This document shows positions 36,065 through 48,033 of a DNA stretch of 64,000 bases, in pieces. The number at the start of each line of letters is the position of its first letter. The stretch's first letter is position 1. The stretch spans positions 62,001 through 126,000 of the forward strand of contig JARLHL010000062.1 in the NCBI GenBank assembly GCA_031292275.1. The letters run 5' to 3'. The notes below the pieces were generated by a model that made no database searches, had not been told where the DNA came from, and worked only from the letters and a program-made list of their open reading frames with translations. Source of the stretch: Desulfocapsaceae bacterium. Lineage in GTDB: Bacteria; Desulfobacterota; Desulfobulbia; Desulfobulbales; Desulfocapsaceae. Made by a program: the position numbers and the translations under genes.

Positions 36065-38230
36065 ATGATTTATCATATTTTTCCTTTTCTTGCCTGGTTC
36101 AAGGACTACGATCTCGGTAAATTCAGGATAGATTTCCTGGCTGGTATCACTGTGGCTCTGGTTTTGATTCCTCAATCCATGGCCTATGCCCAGCTGGCTG
36201 GACTTCCGGCCTATTACGGCCTGTATGCAGCTTTCCTTCCTCCGATCATCGCTTCACTCTTCGGTTCCAGCAGGCAGCTCGCCACCGGTCCCGTGGCCGT
36301 AGTTTCCCTGATGACCTCTGCCACCCTCTCGCCCATGGCGACCGCAGGGTCATCTGAATTTATTGTCTATGCCATTGTCCTGGCCTGCATTGTCGGGGTC
36401 TTTCAGCTGTCACTTGGGATATTGCGTCTCGGGCTGGTGGTGAATTTTCTCTCTCATCCCGTGGTAAACGGTTTTACCAACGCCGCCGCCATTATCATTG
36501 CCACCTCGCAGTTGTCCAAGTTCTTCGGCGACGATGTCACCGAGGCTGAGCATCATTATGAGACCATGGTCCGTGTCTTCAAGGCGGCGATGGATTATAC
36601 GCATTATCCTACTTTATGTTATGGGGTGGGGGCCGTGCTGATCATGGTCGTCTTAAAAAAAATCGACAGGCGCATACCGAATGTCCTGGTTGCAGTTGTC
36701 ATCACCACTCTTATCTCGTATTTCACCGGCTATAACAAGGATGTCCAGGTTGATGTCTCAGCCGTAAAGGTTCCCGAAGTCCATGAACAACTCGATGCAT
36801 TCAACACCGTCGTCAAAACCATCGCCTCTCTGAGCGAGGAGAGGAGGAATGTGTCGCTCAAACTCGATGAAGAACTCAGCGCTCTGAAGGCCGCCCATGT
36901 CCATGGCAGGAAATCGGTCGAAACCATAAATCTCCAGGGACAGATCGAGGCGCTGAGCATGAAGATGGACGAGCAGAAGGGCATTCTGGTCGGAATGCAG
37001 ACTTCTCTTCGTACCCTGAAGTTCGAGGGGGTCAAAAACGACGATAAGACCTACACCTTCTACAGTAAAGGTGCTGCGCCTTCCGGATCTGTCCTCAGTA
37101 CGAGGACCTGGAGGCTGAAGATCGGTAATTCTCCGCTCAATCTGAGCAAATTACGGATTATGGGCGGCGGCGCTGTTGTCGGCAAGATTCCTGAGGGCTT
37201 GCCGAAATTTACCATTCCAGCTCTTTCCATGAAGGTGATAATGAAACTGCTGCCCACCGCAGTCATTATCACACTGCTGGGTTTCATGGAGGCCATTGCC
37301 ATTGCCAAGGCCATTGCCGCCCAGACAGGCCAGACCCTGAATCCGAATCAGGAGCTGATAGGTCAGGGGCTTGCCAACCTGCTTGGCTCTTTCTCTTCCA
37401 GCTATCCGGTTTCCGGTTCCTTTTCACGCTCTGCCGTCAACTTCCAGGCCGGTGCGGTTTCAGGAATATCTTCTGTAGTCACTTCCATTGTGGTGATCGC
37501 CACCCTCCTGTTCTTTACCCCCTTGCTCTATCATCTTCCCCAGGCGGTGCTGGCTGCCATCATTATGATGGCCGTTATTGGTCTGATCAACGTTAAAGGC
37601 TTCCTGCATGCCTGGAAGGCCCAGTGGTATGACGGGGCCATCTCCATACTGACCTTTTTGGTGACCCTCTATTTTGCGCCCCATCTGGACAACGGGATAT
37701 TCCTTGGTGTCCTCCTCTCCATGACCGTCTTTCTGTACAAGTCCATGCGCCCGGTTGTGGCCAGTCTGTCTCTCAATGAGGAAAATGTCCTCAGCTGTGC
37801 CGAGCTTGATCGCCTGAAAGGCTGCCGTCATATTTGCGTGATGCGTTTCGACGGGGCGATCTTTTTCGCCAACGCCAGTTATCTCGACGAGCAGGCCCTG
37901 AAGTTCAGGAGTGAACGGCCTGATCTGCGCTATGTCCTTCTCGATGCACGGGGTATCAATGATGTGGATGCCTCAGGTGAAGAGGCCTTGGATCTGCTTT
38001 GTAAACGGATGCGCAGCGCCGGGCTTGGCTTTGCCATGTGCGGTGTGAAGGGGCAGGTCATGAAGGTGATGAACAGAACTGGTCTTATCAATAAAATAGG
38101 TAAGACTAATATATATGCCGACAGTAGAGCAGCCGTTGCCGCTCTGACGAAAAAGGTTCACGAGGAGACTGACCTCGCTCAGGGTTGCGACAATTGTCCA
38201 TTGACAAAGTATTTGCCGTCTGATAAGTGA
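36065..38230 (+). CDS. SulP-family anion transporter with STAS domain and large insertion
   Basis: A 721-residue member of the SLC26/SulP family, which moves sulfate, bicarbonate or other anions. The start FRIDFLAGITVALVLIPQSMAYAQLAGLPAYYGLYA and GSSRQLATGPVAVVSLM are the family signature. The second half has NQELIGQGLANLLGSFSSSYPVSGSFSRSAVN. A STAS domain lies at about 580-690 (MRFDGAIFFANASYLDE; LLDARGINDVDASG). Between residues about 232 and 366 there is an insertion of about 135 residues, with heptad-like helices (LDEELSALKAAHVHG; INLQGQIEALSMKMDEQKG) and a short beta-rich part. Ordinary SulP proteins have a short link here. The gene precedes the Ehr-like complex genes, so Na+/H+-coupled anion transport linked to that complex is possible. 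Confidence 0.93.
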   Translation: MIYHIFPFLAWFKDYDLGKFRIDFLAGITVALVLIPQSMAYAQLAGLPAYYGLYAAFLPPIIASLFGSSRQLATGPVAVVSLMTSATLSPMATAGSSEFIVYAIVLACIVGVFQLSLGILRLGLVVNFLSHPVVNGFTNAAAIIIATSQLSKFFGDDVTEAEHHYETMVRVFKAAMDYTHYPTLCYGVGAVLIMVVLKKIDRRIPNVLVAVVITTLISYFTGYNKDVQVDVSAVKVPEVHEQLDAFNTVVKTIASLSEERRNVSLKLDEELSALKAAHVHGRKSVETINLQGQIEALSMKMDEQKGILVGMQTSLRTLKFEGVKNDDKTYTFYSKGAAPSGSVLSTRTWRLKIGNSPLNLSKLRIMGGGAVVGKIPEGLPKFTIPALSMKVIMKLLPTAVIITLLGFMEAIAIAKAIAAQTGQTLNPNQELIGQGLANLLGSFSSSYPVSGSFSRSAVNFQAGAVSGISSVVTSIVVIATLLFFTPLLYHLPQAVLAAIIMMAVIGLINVKGFLHAWKAQWYDGAISILTFLVTLYFAPHLDNGIFLGVLLSMTVFLYKSMRPVVASLSLNEENVLSCAELDRLKGCRHICVMRFDGAIFFANASYLDEQALKFRSERPDLRYVLLDARGINDVDASGEEALDLLCKRMRSAGLGFAMCGVKGQVMKVMNRTGLINKIGKTNIYADSRAAVAALTKKVHEETDLAQGCDNCPLTKYLPSDK

Positions 38231-38314
38231 TAGCAGTTTGCGTTGGCTCTTTGGTAACTAATCGTTTCAACTCGAAGATATTTGAGGTTGAATAAGGGTG
38301 CAGGAAGAGCTGTG

Positions 38315-38347
38315 AGGCACGGTGATCCTTTCTCGGGCACCGTGCCT
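38315..38347 (+). other. Perfect inverted repeat between sulP and the Ehr genes
   Basis: AGGCACGGTG (38315-38324) and CACCGTGCCT (38338-38347) are a ten-base perfect inverted repeat with a 13-base loop, followed by no T-run. It is 68 bases before the next start and could be a terminator-like attenuator, a processing site or an operator. Confidence 0.5.
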
Positions 38348-38414: not shown

Positions 38415-40370
38415 ATGGAAACCTTTCTTTTGGCTCTTGGAGTCCTGCTTGCCGGCGGGGTTTTCCCTCTGCTGACCCACAGGCTGTTCAATTTCATGAA
38501 GGCCGTCTATATCGGCGCAACCGTCTGCGGTTGCGGGATCGGTCTGTATGCAGCCGGGATTTCCCTCAGGAGTTCGGAAATAGTCTCCATCTCCTGGCCC
38601 TGGCTGCACATCTTTATGCTCTCTTTTTCTCTGGATTCACTCTCAGCCTTTTTCCTGATACCGATATTCTCCATCTGTCCGTTGGCGGCACTCTACAGCT
38701 TCCATTATATGAATAAAGGGCAGCAGTCGGGAAGGACCGCGATCAATCTGTTTTTTTTCACTGTGCTGATTATCTCCATGGCCCTGGTGACCACAGCCGG
38801 GAATATCATCTCCTTCGCGCTGGCCTGGGAGGTGATGTCGGTTTCCTCATTTTTCCTGGTCATGTACGAGTATCAGCGGGAGGCAACACGGCAGGCCGGC
38901 TATCTGTATTTTATCTTCGCGCAGGCCGGAGCGATGTTTATATTCGCCGCCTTTGCGGTGGCATACAGTCATACCGGCAGTTTCTCCTTTGCCCAGTTCG
39001 CCGGGATTCCCGCTCAGGTGAAGGTGCTCATCTTCTTCCTGGCCCTGATCGGTTTCGGCTCAAAGGCGGGCATCTTTCCGGTTCATATCTGGCTCCCCCA
39101 TGCCCATCCGGCGGCCCCTTCGCATATCTCTGCGGTGATGTCCGGTGTGATGATCAAGATGGGGATCTACGGGATCATCAGGATCTACAGCCTGCTTGAG
39201 GTGAAGGATTTGATTTTCGGTCAGTCCGTTTTAGTTTTCGGAATGATTTCCGGGCTATTGGGGATCGTCTATGCCCTTGGCAAGCGTGATATCAAAAAGC
39301 TGCTGGCTTACTCCAGTGTTGAGAATATCGGCATTATTCTGATCGGCGCCGGCACCGGTATGATAGGAGTCTATTCAAACAACGCCATTATGGCCGGCTT
39401 CGGTTTTGCCGGAAGCCTGCTTCATGTCCTGAATCATTCCATCTTCAAATCCTTGATGTTCATGGGGGCCGGAGCGATTCTGCAGAAGACCAAAACCCGC
39501 CATATTGATCAGATGGGCGGCCTGATCAAAAGGATGCCCCTCACCGGGAAATCCTGTGTCATCGGGGCGGTGTCCATTTCCGGCCTGCCGCCGTTCAATG
39601 GCTTCATCGGTGAGTTCATGATCTATTTCGCGGCCTTTGAAGGACTCGGGGTGAAAGGTCCGACAGCGATCCTGATGATGCTTGCGATCATATCGTTGGC
39701 CCTGATCGGCGGGCTTGCCGTGACCTGCTTTACCAAGGTCATCGGGGTCGCCTTTCTTGGAGAACCGAGATCAGACAAGGCTGCCTCCGCCTCTGAATGC
39801 GGCTTTGCCATGACCGCACCGATGGTCGTTATGGCCGCTGCATGCGTTATAATCGGTATCATTCCGGAACCATTCATTAATCTTGTTTTTCTCAGCCTGC
39901 GTGATATTCACGGATTCTCTGCGGTTCCCCCCGATGTCATCGCTGGTCTCGCCCGGAATTTGGGCCTTGCCGCCCGCCTCATACTGGCTCTTCTAGCCCT
40001 CAGTCTGATCCTGCAGAGGATCTGTTATCTTGGAAAGGAAGTGGCAAAAGGGCCGACTTGGGGCTGCGGTTTTACCCGGCCTACAGCCCGAATGCAGTAT
40101 ACCGGAACCTCTTACGCCATGAGTGTGGCTGATTTTTTCAGGCCCTTTGTCAAGGTGAATACCGTCTACTCCGGCATAAAGAAGATCTTCCCCCGGGGAA
40201 CGACTTATACAACCAGGGTCGACGATATTGCCGAAATCACCATGAACCAGGGCATGGTCGGGCCGCTCTTGAAGGTGCTCGGCAAGTTGCGCTGGATACA
40301 GCACGGCAATATCCAGCTGTATTTTGGCTACATTATTCTGACCATCGTTGTCATGCTCTTTTTTATCTGA
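38415..40370 (+). CDS. Ehr/Hyf complex antiporter-like membrane subunit (HyfB/NuoL type)
   Basis: A 651-residue integral membrane protein with about 16 hydrophobic segments. It belongs to the Mrp-antiporter-like subunits of complex I and group 4 hydrogenases. The charged residues thought to move protons are present: Glu in FALAWEVMSVSSFFL and Lys in GFGSKAGIFPVHIWLPHAHPA, with further Lys/His in MIKMGIYG and LLHVLNHSIFKSLMFMGAG. It closest resembles HyfB/HycC, with an extended C-terminal part (WGCGFTRPTARMQYTGTSYA). It opens the six-gene complex operon. Confidence 0.92.
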   Translation: METFLLALGVLLAGGVFPLLTHRLFNFMKAVYIGATVCGCGIGLYAAGISLRSSEIVSISWPWLHIFMLSFSLDSLSAFFLIPIFSICPLAALYSFHYMNKGQQSGRTAINLFFFTVLIISMALVTTAGNIISFALAWEVMSVSSFFLVMYEYQREATRQAGYLYFIFAQAGAMFIFAAFAVAYSHTGSFSFAQFAGIPAQVKVLIFFLALIGFGSKAGIFPVHIWLPHAHPAAPSHISAVMSGVMIKMGIYGIIRIYSLLEVKDLIFGQSVLVFGMISGLLGIVYALGKRDIKKLLAYSSVENIGIILIGAGTGMIGVYSNNAIMAGFGFAGSLLHVLNHSIFKSLMFMGAGAILQKTKTRHIDQMGGLIKRMPLTGKSCVIGAVSISGLPPFNGFIGEFMIYFAAFEGLGVKGPTAILMMLAIISLALIGGLAVTCFTKVIGVAFLGEPRSDKAASASECGFAMTAPMVVMAAACVIIGIIPEPFINLVFLSLRDIHGFSAVPPDVIAGLARNLGLAARLILALLALSLILQRICYLGKEVAKGPTWGCGFTRPTARMQYTGTSYAMSVADFFRPFVKVNTVYSGIKKIFPRGTTYTTRVDDIAEITMNQGMVGPLLKVLGKLRWIQHGNIQLYFGYIILTIVVMLFFI

Positions 40371-40398
40371 AAGTAAACAGGTTCTCCTGAGGTTGTGT

Positions 40399-41316
40399 AT
40401 GGAATCAATTCTCGCCTACGCCATAGCAATACTTGCGGCGCCGCTTTTTCCCGGCATTATTCTGAAGGTCAAGGCCTTCGTTGCCGGTAAAAAAGGACCG
40501 CCTCTCCTGATCAAATACTACACCCTGGCCAAACTGTTTCGAAAGGGATCGGTGTACAGCACCAGTACAAGCTTTCTCTTCAGGATGGGACCCGCCGTGT
40601 CGATGGCGGCTGCGGTTATGGCTCTTCTGTTCTGCCCCCTGGCCGGGATGATACCGGTCCTTTCGTTTCAGGGAGACGTCATCGTCGTCTTCTACATCAT
40701 GGGACTGGGCAGGTTCTTCACCATTCTGGCAGCCTTAGACACGGCCTCTCCTTTTGAAGGGATGGGATCTGCCCGCGAGGCCTTCTTCTCGATGCTGGCT
40801 GAGGCCACCGTCTTCATGGTCCTGATCCTTTTTTACAGGCTGAATGGCTCATTAAGTTTTTCCGGTTATTTCTCAGGAGATAATCCGATAACATTAACGG
40901 GCCCCAACGGTTCGCTGCTGCTGCTGGTCATCGTCTCCATGTTCATGATCCTGCTCACGGAGAATTCCAGGGTCCCTGTCGATGATCCGATGACCCATTT
41001 GGAACTGACGATGATTCATGAGGTCATGATCCTTGACCACAGCGGTCCGGATCTGGCTCTCATAGAACTGGGGGCCTTCTGTAAGCTCATATTTTACTCG
41101 GTTTTTATCGCCCATCTGCTGGTTCCGGCCAAAGCGTTGGAAGGCCCCCTGTATGATGTGGTCTTCGTCGTCGCGGTCGGGGCGATATATGTGGCGATCG
41201 GCATAACTGAATCTATTATGGCCCGGCTCAAGATGAATCTGGTTCCCAAATTTATCTTAACCTCCTTTGCCTTGGTCTCCTTTGCCGCAATTCTGACCAC
41301 CATGGGGTTTATTTGA
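40399..41316 (+). CDS. Ehr/Hyf complex membrane subunit (HyfC/NuoH type)
   Basis: A 305-residue membrane protein with about eight hydrophobic segments, similar to NuoH/HycD. Recognisable parts are AGKKGPPLLIKYYTLAKLFRKG, DTASPFEGMGSAREAFFSMLAE and ENSRVPVDDPMTHLELTMIHE, which form the quinone/E-channel side of complex I-like enzymes. An open frame starts at 40348, but ATG 40399 with GAGG seven bases upstream fits the family N-terminus. It joins the soluble arm to the antiporter subunits. Confidence 0.93.
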   Translation: MESILAYAIAILAAPLFPGIILKVKAFVAGKKGPPLLIKYYTLAKLFRKGSVYSTSTSFLFRMGPAVSMAAAVMALLFCPLAGMIPVLSFQGDVIVVFYIMGLGRFFTILAALDTASPFEGMGSAREAFFSMLAEATVFMVLILFYRLNGSLSFSGYFSGDNPITLTGPNGSLLLLVIVSMFMILLTENSRVPVDDPMTHLELTMIHEVMILDHSGPDLALIELGAFCKLIFYSVFIAHLLVPAKALEGPLYDVVFVVAVGAIYVAIGITESIMARLKMNLVPKFILTSFALVSFAAILTTMGFI

Positions 41317-41972
41317 TGACACATACGACGGATACAGTTCTAGTGATAATCCTGCTTTCGGTCCTGCTTTCCCTGGGCTCCAGCCGGCTGAAGGCCCTGG
41401 TCGAGACCATGGCCCTGCAGGGTATCATGGTCTCTTTGGTCCCGATCCTGCTGGATTATGGCGCGGACGGTCATGTCGGAGGCAGCCTTATCTTTGTGCA
41501 GATAATGATTGTGATTAAAGGTGTCCTCATCCCCGGCCTGCTTTTTACCGCCGCTCGAAGGATGACCATCAAACGGGAAATCGAGCCCATCATCGGGTAT
41601 CACGCCTCTCTGCTGGCTGGTCTGATTATGATTATGGTCTCGACCCTGGTTACCCAGAGGATGCATCTCACTCTGCCGGTCGGTCGTGAGATGCTGCTGA
41701 CCACTGCCATTACTACCCTGGCGGCCGGGCTTTTCCTGATGATGAGCCGGAGAAAGGCCATCACCCAGGTCATCGGTTATCTGATGCTGGAGAACGGGAT
41801 CTATCTCGTCGGCACGGCCCTGACCAAACAGTCGCACACCCTTTATGTCATCGAATTCGGCGTCCTGCTCGATCTGCTTGTCGGCGTCATGATCATGGGA
41901 ATCATCCTGAACAACATCAATCATGCCTTCGATGATGTCGACACCACCTATCTTGGAAGTTTAAAGGACTGA
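41316..41972 (+). CDS. Ehr/Hyf complex membrane subunit (HyfE type)
   Basis: A 218-residue protein with about six or seven membrane segments, like HyfE, a NuoK-like subunit. SSRLKALVETMALQGIMVSLVPILLDYG and MLENGIYLVGTAL carry the conserved Glu residues in membrane helices, and VIEFGVLLDLLVGVMIMGI follows. The ATG shares a base with the previous stop (TGATG), so translation is coupled. Confidence 0.9.
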   Translation: MTHTTDTVLVIILLSVLLSLGSSRLKALVETMALQGIMVSLVPILLDYGADGHVGGSLIFVQIMIVIKGVLIPGLLFTAARRMTIKREIEPIIGYHASLLAGLIMIMVSTLVTQRMHLTLPVGREMLLTTAITTLAAGLFLMMSRRKAITQVIGYLMLENGIYLVGTALTKQSHTLYVIEFGVLLDLLVGVMIMGIILNNINHAFDDVDTTYLGSLKD

Positions 41973-41976
41973 GAAT

Positions 41977-43404
41977 ATGATAGAATACGTATTTATTCTC
42001 CCAATAATCGGGGGGCTTCTGGCCCTGTTTGTGCCCGTGGTCATGGCCAGGGGGTTGCTGATCCTGGCCGCCCTTTTCCATTTGTCCCTGACCGTTCTGG
42101 GGTGGATGGGAAAACTTGCCCCGGTCTATGTCAATTATTTCAGGGTCACCCCGGAGGGGATGCTGGTCCTCATGGTGACCTCCTTTATCTTCGTGTTCAT
42201 CTCCATCTATGCCGTCTCCTACGCGTACGAGACGAATCTGCAGAACGAGCGGATCTTCGTCAGCTGCATGCTGCTCTTTCTGGGGACCATGAGCATGGTG
42301 GCCCTGTCCGATCATCCGATCATGCTGTGGATTGCCGTTGAGGCCACCACCCTGGTCAGCGCCCCTCTGATCTTTATCAAGAGGTCCAAGGAGGCGCTGG
42401 AGGCCACCTGGAAATATGTGATGATCTGCTCCGTCGGCATTGCCCTGGCGCTGCTTGGCTGCTTCTTCATCACCTTGTCTATGGATATCGGCAATATCGA
42501 TGTGGCCCTGTCGTTTTCCTCGCTGAATCTGGTTGCAAAACAGCTGGACCCACTCTGGTTGAAGACCGGCTTTGTTTTCATCGTTATCGGGTTCGGGACG
42601 AAGATGGGATTGGCTCCCATGCATACCTGGTTGCCCGATGCCCATAGCCAGGCCCCCAGTGCCGCCTCGGCACTCCTGTCCGGAGCCCTGTTGAACTGCG
42701 CTTTTCTCGGGATCTTCAAGGTCAATGCCCTGATGCATGTGGCCGGTCTCGGGGGATTTTCCAGCAATGTGCTGGTGGCCTTCGGCCTCCTGTCGGTGCT
42801 GGTCGCCGGAATCTTCATTCTCAATCAGCCTGATTACAAGAGGATGCTGGCCTACTCCAGTATCGAGAATATGGGGGTTATCGCCTTCGGCATCGGCGTT
42901 GGGGGGATAGCGAGCTTTGGCGCAATCATTCATCTGATCCACCACTCGCTGCTGAAATCGTCGCTGTTTTTGTCTGCGGGCAATCTCCTGCTGGGCTTCG
43001 GGACCAAACTTGTTCCCAAGGTCGGCAATATCGCCAAGCTCTTTCCCGCGACTTTCGTCTCGTTTTTTGCAGGATTTGCCGGCATCTCCGGATTTCCTCC
43101 CTTCGGCGTCTTCATCAGTGAAATCCTGATCATCATCGGCGCCTTTCAGGCCGGCCGATACGGAAGCGTAGGTATCCTGATCTTTGGTCTGCTCCTGGTC
43201 TTTGCCGGTGCGGCCCGGATCGTCATGGATATTTCCTTCGGGGAGACTTCTCAGGAAGTGCTGGTCAAGGAGAAATTTTTCAGGGTCATGCCGTCCTTTG
43301 TCCTGCTGTTGACATCCATCGGGCTCTGTCTCTGGCTTCCCAACAGCATCTATCAGAAAATCCTTCATACCATCGAGATAATAGGAGGTGGATTCCATGG
43401 CTGA
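41977..43404 (+). CDS. Ehr/Hyf complex second antiporter-like subunit (HyfF/NuoN-like)
   Basis: A 475-residue membrane protein, the second antiporter-like subunit of this operon. Proton-path residues are visible: Glu in MLWIAVEATTLVSAPLIF, Lys in GFGTKMGLAPMHTWLPDAHSQAPS, and the His/Lys helix of IHLIHHSLLKSSLFLSAG. It resembles HyfF. Two such subunits would let the complex move more than one ion per cycle. The start is 5 bases after the previous stop. Confidence 0.92.
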   Translation: MIEYVFILPIIGGLLALFVPVVMARGLLILAALFHLSLTVLGWMGKLAPVYVNYFRVTPEGMLVLMVTSFIFVFISIYAVSYAYETNLQNERIFVSCMLLFLGTMSMVALSDHPIMLWIAVEATTLVSAPLIFIKRSKEALEATWKYVMICSVGIALALLGCFFITLSMDIGNIDVALSFSSLNLVAKQLDPLWLKTGFVFIVIGFGTKMGLAPMHTWLPDAHSQAPSAASALLSGALLNCAFLGIFKVNALMHVAGLGGFSSNVLVAFGLLSVLVAGIFILNQPDYKRMLAYSSIENMGVIAFGIGVGGIASFGAIIHLIHHSLLKSSLFLSAGNLLLGFGTKLVPKVGNIAKLFPATFVSFFAGFAGISGFPPFGVFISEILIIIGAFQAGRYGSVGILIFGLLLVFAGAARIVMDISFGETSQEVLVKEKFFRVMPSFVLLLTSIGLCLWLPNSIYQKILHTIEIIGGGFHG

Positions 43405-44908
43405 CCTCCTGCGGATCACCAATGGTGAACGTATACCTCGCGCCGCAATCCCCAGCCTGGCCCTGGAGGAGTTTCTGCAGGCCCTGTCCGACTTCGTCAA
43501 GGCGGATGGCTACATCGTCCAGCTCTTTGCCTACCGGGATGGTGCGAGCAACAGGCTGCTGGCTGTCCTGCGCAATGAAGCACTCTACGTGGCAGGTACC
43601 GAGGTGGGGGATAGCTTTCCCTCGCTGACGAAGACGGCCAGCAAAAAGTTCCATATGTTCGAGCGGGAAATTGCCGAGCAGTACGGAATCAGGCCTGAAG
43701 GGCATCCCTGGCTGAAACCGGTCCGCTATCATGCCAACTACGCCGGCCGTCCCGATGTCTTCGGAAATGATTATTCAGTTGATATTCCCGGGAATTATGA
43801 TTACTTCACCGTGGAAGGCGAGCCCATTCATGAGGTGGCGGTGGGGCCGGTGCATGCGGGCATCATCGAACCCGGCCATTTTCGGTTCCAGTGCGCCGGA
43901 GAGGAGGTCCTGCATCTCGAGATCCAGCTGGGATACCAGCATCGCGGCATCGAAAAAATGCTCACCCAGGTGCCCCAGAAGCGTCTTCCCATTATCTGCG
44001 AGGGGATTGCCGGGGATACCAGCATAGGCCATAATCTCTGCTGCTGCCAGGCCATAGAGGCCTTGGCCGGTCTGCAGGTGGAGAAGGGGGCCAGCATGGT
44101 CCGGGTGATTGGCCTGGAGCTGGAGCGGATCGCCAACCACATAGGCGATCTCGGGGCCCTGAGCGGGGATGTGGCCTTTAATCCCCCGGCCGCCTATTTC
44201 GGCAGGATGCGGGGGGAGTTTCTGAACCTTCTCCAGGTCCTCTGCGGCAACCGCTTTGGCAAGGGACTCGTCCGTCCCGGCGGTGTCGCCCATATAATGG
44301 GGGCCGAACAGCACGGCTTGATCGCAAAGAAACTCGTCGAGATCACTCCTGAAATAAAAAATGTCTGCGATCTTCTCTTTTCAGCCCACACCGTGCAGGC
44401 CAGGTTTGACAATACAGGACCTGTGCCGCTTGAGCTTGCAAAAGAGCTGGGGCTGGTCGGCTATGCGGGGCGTGCCTGCGGTCTGCCCTACGACGTACGG
44501 ACCGCATTTCCCACCGAACGGTATACCGACCTGCCAGGCAACACCAATGCGACTACCCTTGGTGATGTCAACAGCCGTGCTGCAGTGCGGCGCGAAGAGA
44601 TCATGCATTCTCTGTCCCTGATCGAGATGATGCTGGGGCAGCATAAGGGGGAACACAAGTCGGTGCAGATGCAGCAGTACCAGCTCGCCCCCTCGTCGCT
44701 GGTGGTGACCCTCAATGAGGGATGGCGCGGTGAGGTTTCCCACTGCGTTCTCACCGACGATGCCGGCCGTATTCAGCGGTATAAGATTAAAGACCCGTCG
44801 TTTCATAATTGGACAGGCCTGGCGATGTCGCTCAGAAATCAGGAGATATCGGATTTTCCCCTCTGCAATAAGAGTTATAATCTGTCGTACTGCGGTTTCG
44901 ATCTGTGA
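43397..44908 (+). CDS. Ehr/Hyf complex large subunit, NuoCD/HyfG-like, without NiFe cysteines
   Basis: A 503-residue fusion of a NuoC-like domain (about 1-130, FEREIAEQYGIRPEGHPWLKP) and a NuoD/hydrogenase-large-subunit domain. The family is clear from LGYQHRGIEKMLTQVPQKR, MVRVIGLELERIANHIGDLG and KDPSFHNWTGLAMSLRNQE. In real [NiFe] hydrogenases, CxxC pairs near the start of the large-subunit domain and in DPCxxC at the end bind nickel. Here the first position reads EGIAGDTSIGHNLCCC and the second KDPSFHN, so both CxxC pairs are missing. It therefore cannot bind a standard NiFe site and belongs with hydrogenase-related (Ehr) complexes. Start chosen at 43397 behind ATAGGAGGTGG. Confidence 0.92.
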   Translation: MADLLRITNGERIPRAAIPSLALEEFLQALSDFVKADGYIVQLFAYRDGASNRLLAVLRNEALYVAGTEVGDSFPSLTKTASKKFHMFEREIAEQYGIRPEGHPWLKPVRYHANYAGRPDVFGNDYSVDIPGNYDYFTVEGEPIHEVAVGPVHAGIIEPGHFRFQCAGEEVLHLEIQLGYQHRGIEKMLTQVPQKRLPIICEGIAGDTSIGHNLCCCQAIEALAGLQVEKGASMVRVIGLELERIANHIGDLGALSGDVAFNPPAAYFGRMRGEFLNLLQVLCGNRFGKGLVRPGGVAHIMGAEQHGLIAKKLVEITPEIKNVCDLLFSAHTVQARFDNTGPVPLELAKELGLVGYAGRACGLPYDVRTAFPTERYTDLPGNTNATTLGDVNSRAAVRREEIMHSLSLIEMMLGQHKGEHKSVQMQQYQLAPSSLVVTLNEGWRGEVSHCVLTDDAGRIQRYKIKDPSFHNWTGLAMSLRNQEISDFPLCNKSYNLSYCGFDL

Positions 44909-44983
44909 TGAGATGATCTGCCACATGCCTCCCCCCAAGGGGAGAGAGGCCGGCTTTCAGATACTTTATGGAAGGTTTTTGCC

Positions 44984-45727
44984 ATGTTGAAGGTAATTAA
45001 GAACAGATTTGAGCAGGGCTGCAGGACGTCGTCTTATCCCAAAGAGCCCATAAAACTGTACTCTCGGTTCAGGGGACGCCCAGTGGTGAACAGGAATTGC
45101 GACAGGGCTGTTGCCCTGCAATGCGCGCAGATCTGCCCGCAGGAGGCGATTGATCCGGAGAAGATGACGATCGATCTGGGGCGATGTACCTTCTGCGGTC
45201 AGTGTGAAACCGTGAGCGGGGGTGCATTTGTCCGGTTTAGCCAGGATTTCGAACTCGGAGCGGCCAACCGGCAGGATCTGATAACCGATGGTGAACTCCC
45301 GGATCTTGCCGTCCAGGCCAAGGCCCATTTTAAAAAGCTCTTCGGCCGTTCGCTGCAGCTGCGCCAGGTCTCTGCAGCAGGATGCAATGCCTGCGAGGCC
45401 GATACCAATGTCCTGAACACCCCTTTTTTTGACCTCTCCCGTTTTGGTATAGACTTTGTGGCTTCGCCCAGGCATGCTGACGGTATTCATGTCACCGGCC
45501 CCGTCTCCGTCAATATGAAGACCGCCTTGCTGACCACCTACGAGGCCGTGCCGTCACCAAAGGTGGTGATCGCCAGCGGCTGCTGTTCAATTTCCGGCGG
45601 GCCTTTCTACGGCAGCGAGGAGATAGTAGGTGATCTGAACAGTATCCTGCCGGTGGATCTCTATATCCCAGGCTGTCCGCCCCATCCTCTGACAACCCTG
45701 CATGCGCTGTTGAAATTTTTTAAATAA
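44984..45727 (+). CDS. Ehr/Hyf complex small subunit (NuoB/HyfI-like) with N-terminal ferredoxin domain
   Basis: A 247-residue protein. The N-terminal part (about 35-80) is a degenerate ferredoxin domain: C39, C47, C51 before Pro, then CTFCGQC at 68-74, enough for at least one [4Fe-4S] cluster. The C-terminal part is NuoB-like, with CNAC at 134-137, GCCSISGG and PGCPPHP, retaining the four ligands of the proximal (N2-type) cluster. It probably carries electrons to the large subunit site. No separate NuoI/HyfH-like gene follows, so the fused domain may replace it. It ends the operon, convergent with the next gene. Confidence 0.9.
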   Translation: MLKVIKNRFEQGCRTSSYPKEPIKLYSRFRGRPVVNRNCDRAVALQCAQICPQEAIDPEKMTIDLGRCTFCGQCETVSGGAFVRFSQDFELGAANRQDLITDGELPDLAVQAKAHFKKLFGRSLQLRQVSAAGCNACEADTNVLNTPFFDLSRFGIDFVASPRHADGIHVTGPVSVNMKTALLTTYEAVPSPKVVIASGCCSISGGPFYGSEEIVGDLNSILPVDLYIPGCPPHPLTTLHALLKFFK

Positions 45728-45744: not shown

Positions 45745-46227
45745 CTATTGGTGGATCAAAGCCGCCTTTTCCGGGGTGTCTGAGAAGCCGTCCACGGGGA
45801 TCAGCCAGTAGCCGTCCGGCTGGGCCGCAATCGCCTGCCGGGTCTGATCGGTCAGCCAGTGACTGTCGTCGACCAGATTATAGAAGGCGCTGTCAATTCC
45901 GATAAAACCGTCGAGAAAATGGGTGACTATATGCAGGATCTTGCTGGGATAGCCCTGAGGCAGGCTTAGAAGGTCCGAGGTCCGTCTGGTTCCGGTATTC
46001 TCCAGGTCTGTGACTAGGCCCTTCAGAATGTGCCGGTTTTTTTCAATCGCAGCTGCCATGCAGGCATTGAATCGGGGATGACTGCCCGGCTTTGAGCCCC
46101 TTTCGTCGATGCTGAAGAGATCATAGCGGACCAGCTGGGTCCGCTGGAAAAAATCCATGACCTGCTTCCTGCAGCTTTCATAAGAATCTCCTGCAACAAG
46201 CATGTCATGGTGGGCGATTATCTGCAT
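45745..46227 (-). CDS. Conserved-looking protein of unknown function, near flavodiiron gene
   Basis: A 160-residue soluble protein that I do not recognise. It begins MQIIAHHDMLVAGDSYESCRKQV and contains aromatic-rich stretches such as SKILHIVTHFLDGFIGIDSAFYNLVDDSHWL and DGYWLIPVDGFSDTPE. There is no signal peptide or membrane segment. It is 45 bases downstream of the flavodiiron gene on the same strand with a hairpin between, so co-transcription is possible. Confidence 0.7.
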   Translation of the reverse strand: MQIIAHHDMLVAGDSYESCRKQVMDFFQRTQLVRYDLFSIDERGSKPGSHPRFNACMAAAIEKNRHILKGLVTDLENTGTRRTSDLLSLPQGYPSKILHIVTHFLDGFIGIDSAFYNLVDDSHWLTDQTRQAIAAQPDGYWLIPVDGFSDTPEKAALIHQ

Positions 46228-46272: not shown

Positions 46273-47466
46273 TTATTTCTTTTCCTTCAAGGCCTTGCCG
46301 ATGGCATGCCCCATGTCAACACATCGCGAAAGGTCTGATGCTTCCGGGACGTATTTGACCCGGAAGCCCTCGTCGATGATATCCAGTTTCATCTCGGTCA
46401 TGGCCTCGTTCAAAAGCCGTACCGATTCGCCGGACCAGCCGTAGGATCCGAAGGCGGCGCCGATCTTATTGGTCGGACGCAGACCGCGCATGTACATCAA
46501 AAAGTCTGCCATGCGGGGCAGCAGACCATTGTTCAGCGTCGGAGAGCCCAGGATGAGGGCGCTGGCGTTCAAGACCTCCTGCATGACATCGCTGCGATGG
46601 ATGTAGCGGAGATTCATAAGTTTGTGAGAGATCCCCTCGTCTTGCAGGCCGGTGGAGATAGCCTTGGCCATCATCTCCGTGGAATGCCACATTGTGTCGT
46701 AAATGATCAGCGCGTTCCCGTCACCAATATTGTTGCACCATTTCGAATAGGACTTGATCGCCTTGGTCGGGTCGGCGCGCCAGATGACGCCGTGATCCGG
46801 ACAGATCATATCGATCTCAAGCTTCATTTCAGCAACTTTTTCCAGCAGCTTTTTGACGTTGGGCGAATAAAGGGTCAGGATGTTTGCGTAGTACTTGGTC
46901 AGCTCTTCCAGCAGAACGGCCTGGTCGACCTGGTCGTCAAACCGCTCACTGGTGGCGAGATGCTGGCCGAAGGCGTCGCTGGAGAAGAGCAGCTTGTCCT
47001 CTTTGACGTAGGTGAACATGGAATCGGGCCAGTGCAGCATCCGGGTCTCCAGGAAAGACAGCGACCGTTTGCCCAGGCAGATCTCGTCGCCCGACTTGAC
47101 GACCTCATAGGGCCAGTCTTGATGATGGAAGTGCTGCAGCAGGGCCTGGTGGCCCATCTTTGAACAGAAGATCTTTTCCGGCTTGATCAGATTCACCATC
47201 TCGGGCAGGCAGCCGGAGTGGTCCATTTCCACATGGTTGACAACGATATAGTCGATCTTTTCCGGATCGATGATCTCTTTGATGCGGCTGATCAGGTCGC
47301 TGGTCAATGATCGTTTGACCGTATCAACCAGGGTCACCTTCTCATCTATGATCAGAAAGGCGTTGTAGGTTGTTCCTCTGTTGGTCGAGTATCCATGAAA
47401 ATCACGAACGTCCCAGTCGATTGCTCCGACCCAGTATATATTATCCTTCACTGTAATAGGGTTCAA
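46273..47466 (-). CDS. Flavodiiron protein (A-type, rubredoxin:oxygen oxidoreductase-like)
   Basis: A 397-residue enzyme that reduces O2 to water (or NO to N2O) to protect anaerobes. The N-terminal metallo-beta-lactamase domain has the diiron ligands in VNHVEMDHSG, the later His in MLHWPDSM, Asp in SSDAFGQH and His in CPDHGVIWR. The C-terminal flavodoxin domain has the FMN-binding loop IIYDTMWHSTEMMA and FGSYGWSGES. I place the start at TTG 47466, giving MNPITVKDNIYWVGAIDWD, because GGAGG lies eight bases upstream. A longer frame from 47505 has no such site. Electron donors would be rubredoxin or a small ferredoxin. Confidence 0.95.
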   Translation of the reverse strand: MNPITVKDNIYWVGAIDWDVRDFHGYSTNRGTTYNAFLIIDEKVTLVDTVKRSLTSDLISRIKEIIDPEKIDYIVVNHVEMDHSGCLPEMVNLIKPEKIFCSKMGHQALLQHFHHQDWPYEVVKSGDEICLGKRSLSFLETRMLHWPDSMFTYVKEDKLLFSSDAFGQHLATSERFDDQVDQAVLLEELTKYYANILTLYSPNVKKLLEKVAEMKLEIDMICPDHGVIWRADPTKAIKSYSKWCNNIGDGNALIIYDTMWHSTEMMAKAISTGLQDEGISHKLMNLRYIHRSDVMQEVLNASALILGSPTLNNGLLPRMADFLMYMRGLRPTNKIGAAFGSYGWSGESVRLLNEAMTEMKLDIIDEGFRVKYVPEASDLSRCVDMGHAIGKALKEKK

Positions 47467-47528
47467 TGTTGCATCCTCCAATAATTTATAAGTTTTTAAA
47501 TGCAAAAATATGTTTTATTTTAGAAACT

Positions 47529-47802: not shown

Positions 47803-48033
47803 ATGAAAACTGATGGCAGGCAGCAGAAGGAGACCGGGCCTCGGATGATCCCTGTGGTTGACCTGGGCCGGTGCAGCCGTTGCGAAGGCTGTATTGAGAT
47901 TGCTCCCGAGGTCTTTCGCGTCAATACGGATACAGCTTGCATTGAGGTCATAGACCTGCCTGAGTATCCGATTGATAAAGTCAATGAAACCATTACGTAT
48001 TGTCCTGAGGATTGCATCTCGTGGGAGCATTGA
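47803..48033 (+). CDS. Ferredoxin, single [4Fe-4S] type
   Basis: A 76-residue ferredoxin. CSRCEGC in VDLGRCSRCEGCIEIAPEVF and CPEDCISWE near the end supply a CxxCxxC plus CPxxC set typical of monocluster [4Fe-4S] ferredoxins. The second domain half carries no cluster motif. An internal ATG at 47845 (MIPVVDLGRC) is an alternative start. It is divergent from the flavodiiron gene and could be one of its electron donors; that link is inferred from position only. Confidence 0.88.
   Translation: MKTDGRQQKETGPRMIPVVDLGRCSRCEGCIEIAPEVFRVNTDTACIEVIDLPEYPIDKVNETITYCPEDCISWEH

Follow-up and report, generated by a model that had tools for sequence, protein, structure and literature searches.

A hydrogenase-related (Ehr) complex without NiFe ligands in a Desulfocapsaceae bacterium, and a possible link to inorganic-carbon or anion handling in its relatives

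A 64,000-nucleotide stretch of DNA from a Desulfocapsaceae bacterium, hereafter the window, encodes an Ehr complex that is very probably a complex I-like, redox-driven ion pump devoid of NiFe, and not a hydrogenase. A coupling of this complex to CO2/HCO3− is far less certain, with the case for it and the case against it of about equal weight in our judgement, and we hold the same evenly balanced view of the joint reading, in which a non-hydrogenase redox-driven ion pump works together with bicarbonate or anion handling. Ehr is an already published kind of complex, and it is the gene neighbourhood that is new here. Recent papers call the function of Ehr unknown (PMC10284858, PMC10432482), and the initial annotation's statement that the substrate is unknown still holds; the neighbourhood of relatives, with its LCIB-like carbonic anhydrase and SulP transporter, offers a lead.

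Results

The Ehr operon

Six intact, co-directional and partly overlapping open reading frames occupy positions 38415–45727 of the forward strand in the order hyfB-C-E-F-G-I (Table 1), which bears out the earlier reading of the gene order and membrane subunits as those of group 4 hydrogenases. Both features that define an Ehr are found, namely a group 4-like BCEFGI set within one cluster and a large subunit without NiFe CxxC pairs. In the HyfC-like gene, translation more likely begins with the ATG at 40399 than with the TTG. A quick tree put the large subunit among those of other Ehr complexes and away from NiFe hydrogenases and Nuo, a placement that is rough because the three outgroup branches are long; in quick-tree analysis the window's Ehr also formed a clade separate from published Ehr (96% SH-aLRT).

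No electron-donor gene lies adjacent to the operon. The strong RNA hairpin between the SulP and hyfB-like genes, in which a clear T-run was not seen, may be an attenuator or nothing, and no match to the −24/−12 promoter consensus was found near SulP/hyfB. An upstream histidine kinase/NtrC pair was rejected as a co-travelling regulator, its identity to the pairs beside other Ehr loci (~33–40%) being too low to support orthology.

Table 1 Features of the Ehr locus in the window (positions are those of the window)
Feature	Position	Strand	Evidence or remark
SulP-family anion transporter, 721 aa, directly upstream of Ehr	36065..38230	+	Pfam Sulfate_transp 1e-104, STAS 1.5e-15
Strong RNA hairpin between SulP and hyfB-like genes, GGCACGGTG...CACCGTGCC	38314..38347	+	stem in MFE fold, region z = -2.07
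HyfB-like/NuoL-like antiporter subunit, 651 aa	38415..40370	+	
HyfC-like/NuoH-like membrane anchor, 322 aa from TTG	40348..41316	+	Pfam NADHdh 8e-28
HyfE-like membrane subunit, 219 aa	41313..41972	+	NCBIfam hydrogenase 4 membrane subunit 3e-23, below cutoff
HyfF-like/NuoN-like antiporter subunit, 475 aa	41977..43404	+	
Large subunit, HyfG-like NuoC-NuoD fusion, 506 aa, GTG start	43388..44908	+	without NiFe cysteines
L1 position, A208-G209-D210-T211	44009..44020	+	replaces CxxC
CCC, C218-C220	44039..44047	+	not conserved
L2 position, S500-Y501-C502-G503, at C-terminus	44885..44896	+	replaces CxxC
Small subunit, NuoI-NuoB fusion, 247 aa	44984..45727	+	

Loss of the NiFe site

The large subunit was aligned with E. 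coli HycE, P. furiosus MbhL and an authentic Ech-type hydrogenase encoded within this bacterial family, a check of the kind that the initial annotation had proposed, and all four NiFe cysteines proved to be absent, as it had claimed. The L1 and L2 CxxC ligands of group 4 [NiFe] hydrogenases correspond here to A208/T211 and S500/G503; the Ech-type control from within the family keeps all four cysteines (CSLC and DPCISC). Among 75 relatives, position 208 is Ala in 71 and Cys in one, position 211 is Thr or Ser in 74, and positions 500 and 503 are Ser and Gly throughout. The motif KDPSFHN (residues 468–474), previously taken for the second site, was ruled out as L2 since it aligns with a stretch conserved in NuoD; L2 lies at the C-terminus. 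The CCC cluster reported near residue 215 does exist, at residues 218–220, but the metal-binding or redox role suggested for it is unsupported because these residues vary freely among close relatives (C218 in 15/75, C219 in 5/75 and C220 in 46/75), and we reject it as a metal site of the family. The conserved cysteines of the large subunit are C169 (74/75 relatives), C493 (67/75) and C502 (71/75).

The structural model of the large subunit (pLDDT 92.6) has HycE as its best match (7z0s_E; Z 40.0, 486 residues aligned, 2.8 Å), and its residue 505 aligns with HycE 537, the end of mature HycE. Because the NiFe ligands are missing and the chain ends at the same point as mature HycE, we agree with the earlier assignment to Ehr rather than to the hydrogenases. 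Two residues are kept in all 75 relatives, H156, which corresponds to the quinone-site His of Nqo4, and E161, the counterpart of MbhL E21; G209 sits at the counterpart of quinone-site Tyr87.

Clusters and proton-path residues

Cysteine spacing in the small subunit suggests one NuoI-type [4Fe-4S] cluster (C51, C68, C71, C74) and one N2-type cluster with hydrogenase spacing (C134xxC137, C201, C231). The four cysteines of the latter, already described as kept in the initial annotation, are conserved at ≥90% across 44 relatives, and so, among 36–44 relatives, are the Glu and Lys residues that it had recognised in both antiporter-like subunits (E139, K217, K248, K345 and E400 in the HyfB-like protein, 36 relatives; E122, E142, K209, K327 and E382 in the HyfF-like protein, 40 relatives). 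Complex I is marked by an adjacent Cys-Cys at N2 and by a quinone-site His and Tyr, whereas the N2 pair here is CxxC, with the His kept and the Tyr replaced by G209. MBS is marked by a proximal [4Fe-4S] cluster with three Cys ligands, whereas all four are kept here in 44 relatives.

Gene neighbourhood in the window and in relatives

The SulP gene just 5′ of the hyfB-like gene did not figure in the initial annotation. Its product carries a STAS domain and a ~115-aa insert (residues ~250–364), and it scores 152.7 of the 880 bits of the BicA NCBIfam equivalog cutoff, which leaves room for other kinds of SulP bicarbonate transporter. An ortholog lies within 26 kb of Ehr in 17 of the 59 genomes that have both, and within 26 kb of a gene that we call c7 in 17 of 44; in some other genomes it adjoins c7. 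SulP is no universal partner of Ehr, being near it in those 17/59 genomes within the order and absent near it outside the order.

The c7 gene (~393 aa) lies within 12 kb of an Ehr in 42 of its 77 copies across the order, always on the same strand, 38 times upstream and 4 times downstream, and mostly directly before hyfB with gaps of 36–563 nt. Close-clade Ehr occurs in 55 of 67 genomes with c7 and in 31 of 176 without it (Fisher p = 9e-21, uncorrected for kinship); 31 of the 86 genomes with close-clade Ehr have no c7. In a quick tree, adjacency of c7 to Ehr changes at least 10 times, partly owing to contig ends. Outside the class, c7 stands beside an Ehr clade of 48–49% identity in two genomes and beside a different SulP in another. 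As read from these sequences, the c7–Ehr link appears to have formed repeatedly, and its occurrence outside the class to be independent.

By homology and zinc ligands, c7 is an LCIB-like putative carbonic anhydrase. An LCIB-type family was the sole Pfam match in 6 of 8 copies scanned (E 4e-5 to 1e-3; 18.6–23.5 bits, under the curated cutoff of 25), with none in two divergent copies, and a profile comparison with LCIB in hhalign gave 93.5% (E 2.4e-7). C54, D56, H106 and C133 of c7 align on the LCIB invariants C46, D48, H105 and C128. A fold model built from four sequences reached a pLDDT of 37.6. A small protein linked to Ehr in relatives, c8, received no family assignment. Searches of the window's own genome for c7, c8 and a Pro_CA-type beta-carbonic anhydrase found none of the three, and the Ehr complex is thus independent of them. 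A canonical beta-carbonic anhydrase follows the operon in two relatives; distant c7-like genes stand beside DASS sulfate/dicarboxylate symporters at two loci, and c7 itself does so at another.

Discussion

The missing NiFe ligands, the intact four-Cys proximal cluster, the single NuoI-type cluster and the charged antiporter residues, taken from sequence and model, together point to an ion pump and not a hydrogenase. The small subunit would take up electrons from a donor of low potential, probably ferredoxin, and hand them on to the metal-free pocket of the large subunit; there they would reduce a diffusible acceptor, most likely of quinone type, and this reduction would drive export of H+ or Na+. 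For the order, we propose a role of the pump in inorganic-carbon (CO2/HCO3−) or anion handling because the LCIB-like carbonic anhydrase and SulP are encoded beside Ehr in relatives; the pump could export the proton that CO2 hydration sets free, or could supply the gradient for SulP. The window holds Ehr and SulP only, and it is relatives that supply the basis for including the carbonic anhydrase.

Alternatively, the complex may be no more than a reduced complex I that conserves energy as a ferredoxin (or formate-linked):menaquinone oxidoreductase, with c7 and SulP as neighbours through shared regulation only, a reading that we consider possible but somewhat doubtful. The general similarity to Nuo and Hyf, the invariant H156 and the finding that a Geobacter Ehr of another clade was most abundant on formate (PMC7894505) are all consistent with it; G209 in place of Tyr87 and the two Nuo-type complexes already in the genome count against it, however, and c7 joined Ehr more than once, a different clade included, a pattern that co-regulation alone predicts poorly. 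The module might also power the uptake of sulfate or another anion instead of bicarbonate, with Ehr providing the gradient, SulP importing sulfate and the carbonic anhydrase buffering pH. That SulP may carry sulfate counts against the reading preferred here: dsrA is present in the genome, c7 and c7-like genes occur near DASS symporters, and SulP scores well under the BicA cutoff. Yet SulP orthologs occur also in genomes without Ehr, and a carbonic anhydrase is not known as a partner of sulfate import; this version appears unlikely.

Two further alternatives can be named. Sulfane-sulfur (polysulfide) reduction in the manner of Pyrococcus MBS would suit a lineage that metabolises sulfur, and MBS is the sole Ehr-like complex for which a structure has been solved and a reaction assayed (PMC7684303), but its catalysis requires a three-Cys proximal cluster where the window's complex has four cysteines in CxxC spacing, and E161, whose MbhL counterpart E21 is missing in MBS, is retained throughout; we therefore regard it as very improbable. 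A metalloenzyme in which C169, C493 and C502 form a new site within the former NiFe pocket is slightly harder still to credit: these cysteines are kept in 67–74 of 75 relatives and C502 is one residue off an L2 position, but C502 is Ser in a sister Ehr clade and 8/75 relatives have Asn at 493.

The preferred reading, a non-hydrogenase pump tied to bicarbonate or anion handling, can be set against known systems. Published Ehr complexes (Geobacter EhrA-L/S, comammox Nitrospira, Saganbacteria) have the same Hyf-like set and a large subunit without NiFe CxxC (PMC10284858, PMC6349859, PMC7894505), whereas the clade described here is separate, has a linked LCIB-like carbonic anhydrase, c8 and SulP, and lacks formate dehydrogenase and NuoEF genes in its vicinity. 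HycE and Hyf of formate hydrogenlyase are alike in fold and architecture; here, by contrast, the four NiFe cysteines are lost, there is no C-terminal extension, and the small subunit is a NuoI-NuoB fusion. Pyrococcus MBS is likewise complex I-like with NiFe lost, differing in the ligands of its proximal cluster. Compared with LCIB/LCIC, c7 has the CxD...H...CG zinc motif in register but is longer and aligns over ~107–120 residues only.

Closest in principle are the vectorial carbonic anhydrases, cyanobacterial NDH-1MS and chemolithoautotroph DAB2, which pair complex I-type proton subunits with a beta-carbonic anhydrase-like protein (PMC13144422). In contrast to these, the present complex has a full hydrogenase-like redox arm, the putative partner is of LCIB type and is tied to Ehr by gene linkage in relatives, and the anhydrase gene is missing from the window's genome. 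Ehr with c7 (and SulP) could conceivably represent a third type among the vectorial carbonic anhydrases, in which a redox-driven pump of hydrogenase descent, working in anaerobes, takes away the CO2-hydration proton as a non-photosynthetic counterpart of NDH-1MS, with the window's lineage having kept pump and SulP and lost the anhydrase; we offer this as a speculation that is probably wrong in at least some part. In a literature search, with most subscription journals outside its reach, no Ehr–LCIB or Ehr–SulP link was described.

Ehr complexes occur across many phyla, with at least 569 relatives matched, and their neighbourhood gives a first clue to the role of a widespread orphan machine. 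The conserved and recurrent link to a carbonic anhydrase-like gene and an anion transporter yields predictions that experiments can test on how Desulfobulbales-type bacteria handle CO2/bicarbonate or anions and, if the proposal is true, redox-driven CO2 hydration would exist beyond photosynthetic organisms.

Loss of the NiFe ligands in a known kind of complex

Ehr itself is an already known kind of complex, to which the literature assigns no function (PMC10284858, PMC10432482); formate links have been suggested for Ehr of other clades (PMC6349859, PMC7894505), and HyfBCEFGI of Desulfobacterium autotrophicum has been described as a hydrogenase (PMC2702500). We confirmed at least 569 relatives in a scan of GTDB species genomes, and the matches listed include Desulfobacterota, Planctomycetes, Verrucomicrobia, Acidobacteria, Spirochaetes, and others. 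In a quick tree with long outgroup branches, the Ehr of the window groups within a clade (38 sampled rows, 96% SH-aLRT) that is separate from other Ehr, Nuo, and true hydrogenase. The assembly (4.14 Mb, completeness 99.98%, contig C114) has Desulfobulbaceae as its closest named relatives among the matches listed, and additionally encodes two Nuo-type complexes (L113, L114). Checking of the ORFs bore out the six group 4-like genes of the initial annotation (Table).

Features of the window and of loci in relatives
Feature	Location	Strand	Remark
SulP	36065-38230	+	
HyfB-, HyfC-, HyfE-, HyfF-, HyfG-, HyfI-like ORFs	38415-45727	+	six, co-directional
160-aa protein	45745-46227	-	adjoins operon; no Pfam or NCBIfam match
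Flavodiiron protein (FprA-like)	46273-47505	-	just downstream of operon
Single-cluster ferredoxin	47803-48033	+	just downstream of operon
Divergent c7	L131:2759-3871		all predicted zinc ligands lost
Divergent c7	L134:16094-17248		all predicted zinc ligands lost
c7 or c7-like gene	L209:1854-4698		next to DASS sodium:sulfate/dicarboxylate symporter
c7 or c7-like gene	L210:8352-11276		next to DASS sodium:sulfate/dicarboxylate symporter
c7 or c7-like gene	L200:6055-10354		next to DASS sodium:sulfate/dicarboxylate symporter

The large subunit, a 506-aa NuoC-NuoD fusion, had been described as devoid of NiFe cysteines, and all four are indeed absent in alignments to E. coli HycE and P. furiosus MbhL, its best phmmer alignments, and to a control, the true Ech-type hydrogenase L122 of the same bacterial family, which retains CSLC and DPCISC. 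The CGIC of L1, the first NiFe-binding CxxC position, aligns onto A208-G-D-T211 by phmmer; in the joint alignment with L122, CSLC falls on AGDT and DPCISC (L2) on S500-Y-C-G503. All 75 relatives examined share S500 and G503, 71 have A208, and at position 211, 69 have Thr and 5 have Ser; given these alignments and this conservation, we conclude that all four ligands have been lost. KDPSFHN, earlier taken for the L2 site, is ruled out because NuoD has the same stretch, and the proposed metal or redox role of the CCC cluster did not hold up, as C218-C220 varies freely among relatives; the conserved cysteines are C169, C493, and C502. The C-terminus coincides with the end of mature HycE, with no C-terminal extension; such extensions are cleaved during Ni insertion. 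A further Ehr clade (L119, L120, L121; 33-36% identical) has SYSG at L2 and SGDS or SGDT at L1.

The structure closest to the large-subunit model (pLDDT 92.6) is HycE (Z 40.0, 486 residues, 2.8 A). H156 and E161, counterparts of Nqo4 H38 and MbhL E21, are invariant in the 75 relatives, and MBS lacks counterparts of both (PMC7684303); G209 stands where the quinone-site Tyr would be. The small subunit, a 247-aa NuoI-NuoB fusion, keeps, as originally noted, all four N2-type cysteines; their spacing is that of hydrogenases (C134xxC137, C201, C231). Its NuoI part keeps C47, C51, C68, C71, and C74, a spacing that suggests one [4Fe-4S] cluster, whereas NuoI has two. The complex is very probably a pump and not a hydrogenase: electrons would come from a ferredoxin-type donor and reach a metal-free acceptor site, with ion pumping. 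The downstream ferredoxin could be a donor, though it is not conserved as a neighbour.

A predicted carbonic anhydrase encoded beside Ehr in relatives

Upstream of hyfB, the place that SulP holds in the window is occupied in relatives by c8 (76-96 aa) and c7 (~393 aa), in the order c8-c7-B-C-E-F-G-I. LCIB_C_CA was the sole Pfam match in six of eight scanned c7 copies (E 4e-5 to 1e-3, just below the curated cutoff), and the two others, which are divergent, had no such match. We also compared c7 with a profile built from bacterial LCIB proteins of the same phylum, a profile whose own matches to LCIC and LCIB structures reach e-54 or better. The alignment (probability 93.5%, E 2.4e-7) places C54, D56, H106, and C133 of c7 onto the invariant LCIB residues C46, D48, H105, and C128. 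By sequence, c7 matches LCIB and is a predicted carbonic anhydrase. Divergent copies preceding Ehr in one genus (L131, L134) lack all these residues, and a canonical beta-CA gene lies 3' of the operon at two loci (L039, L138).

Within the class, 67 of 243 genomes carry c7; a close-clade Ehr occurs in 55 of these and in 31 of the 176 others (Fisher p 9e-21, not tree-corrected), as well as in 40 of the 44 genomes with c8. Forty-two of 77 c7 copies lie within 12 kb of an Ehr large-subunit gene, all on its strand (38 upstream, 4 downstream). Among the class genomes examined, c7 was not found with the Ehr clade that has an upstream HTH/PTS-IIA regulator. Outside the class, G288 and G430 have c7 immediately 5' of an Ehr from a different clade (48-49% identity), in G380 and G604 it precedes Ehr genes of the close type, and in G251 it adjoins a different SulP (23% identical). 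At L205 and L206, c7 precedes a different Ehr clade bearing several HyfB-like pieces.

SulP and the link to inorganic carbon

In the window, SulP lies 184 nt upstream of hyfB on the same strand, with a strong hairpin between them. Of 59 genomes that encode both Ehr and an ortholog of this SulP (at least 61% identity), 17 have the two no more than 26 kb apart; for the ortholog and c7 the figure is 17 of 44. Chance placement would give ~1.3% per genome, with shared ancestry still in the comparison. SulP adjoins c7 in G146 and G192, where Ehr sits on another contig. A ~115-aa coiled-coil-like insert (residues ~250-364) interrupts the membrane domain of the protein midway, and a CDNC motif lies close to the C-terminus. 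At L202 an ortholog beside c7 and Ehr is in two pieces with an internal stop, and is probably a decaying gene.

Sulfate is a live option as the SulP cargo, favoured by dsrA in the window's genome and by the DASS sulfate/dicarboxylate symporter genes that adjoin distant c7-like genes (Table). Since a search of that genome found no c7, c8, or Pro_CA, the CO2 reading for the window's copy rests on the relatives and on SulP. We found no description of a CA/SulP-linked form of Ehr in the literature, as far as it is searchable. Coupling of the complex to inorganic carbon has, in our estimate, about an even chance of being correct; NDH-1MS and DAB2 are precedents for such coupling in principle (PMC13144422).
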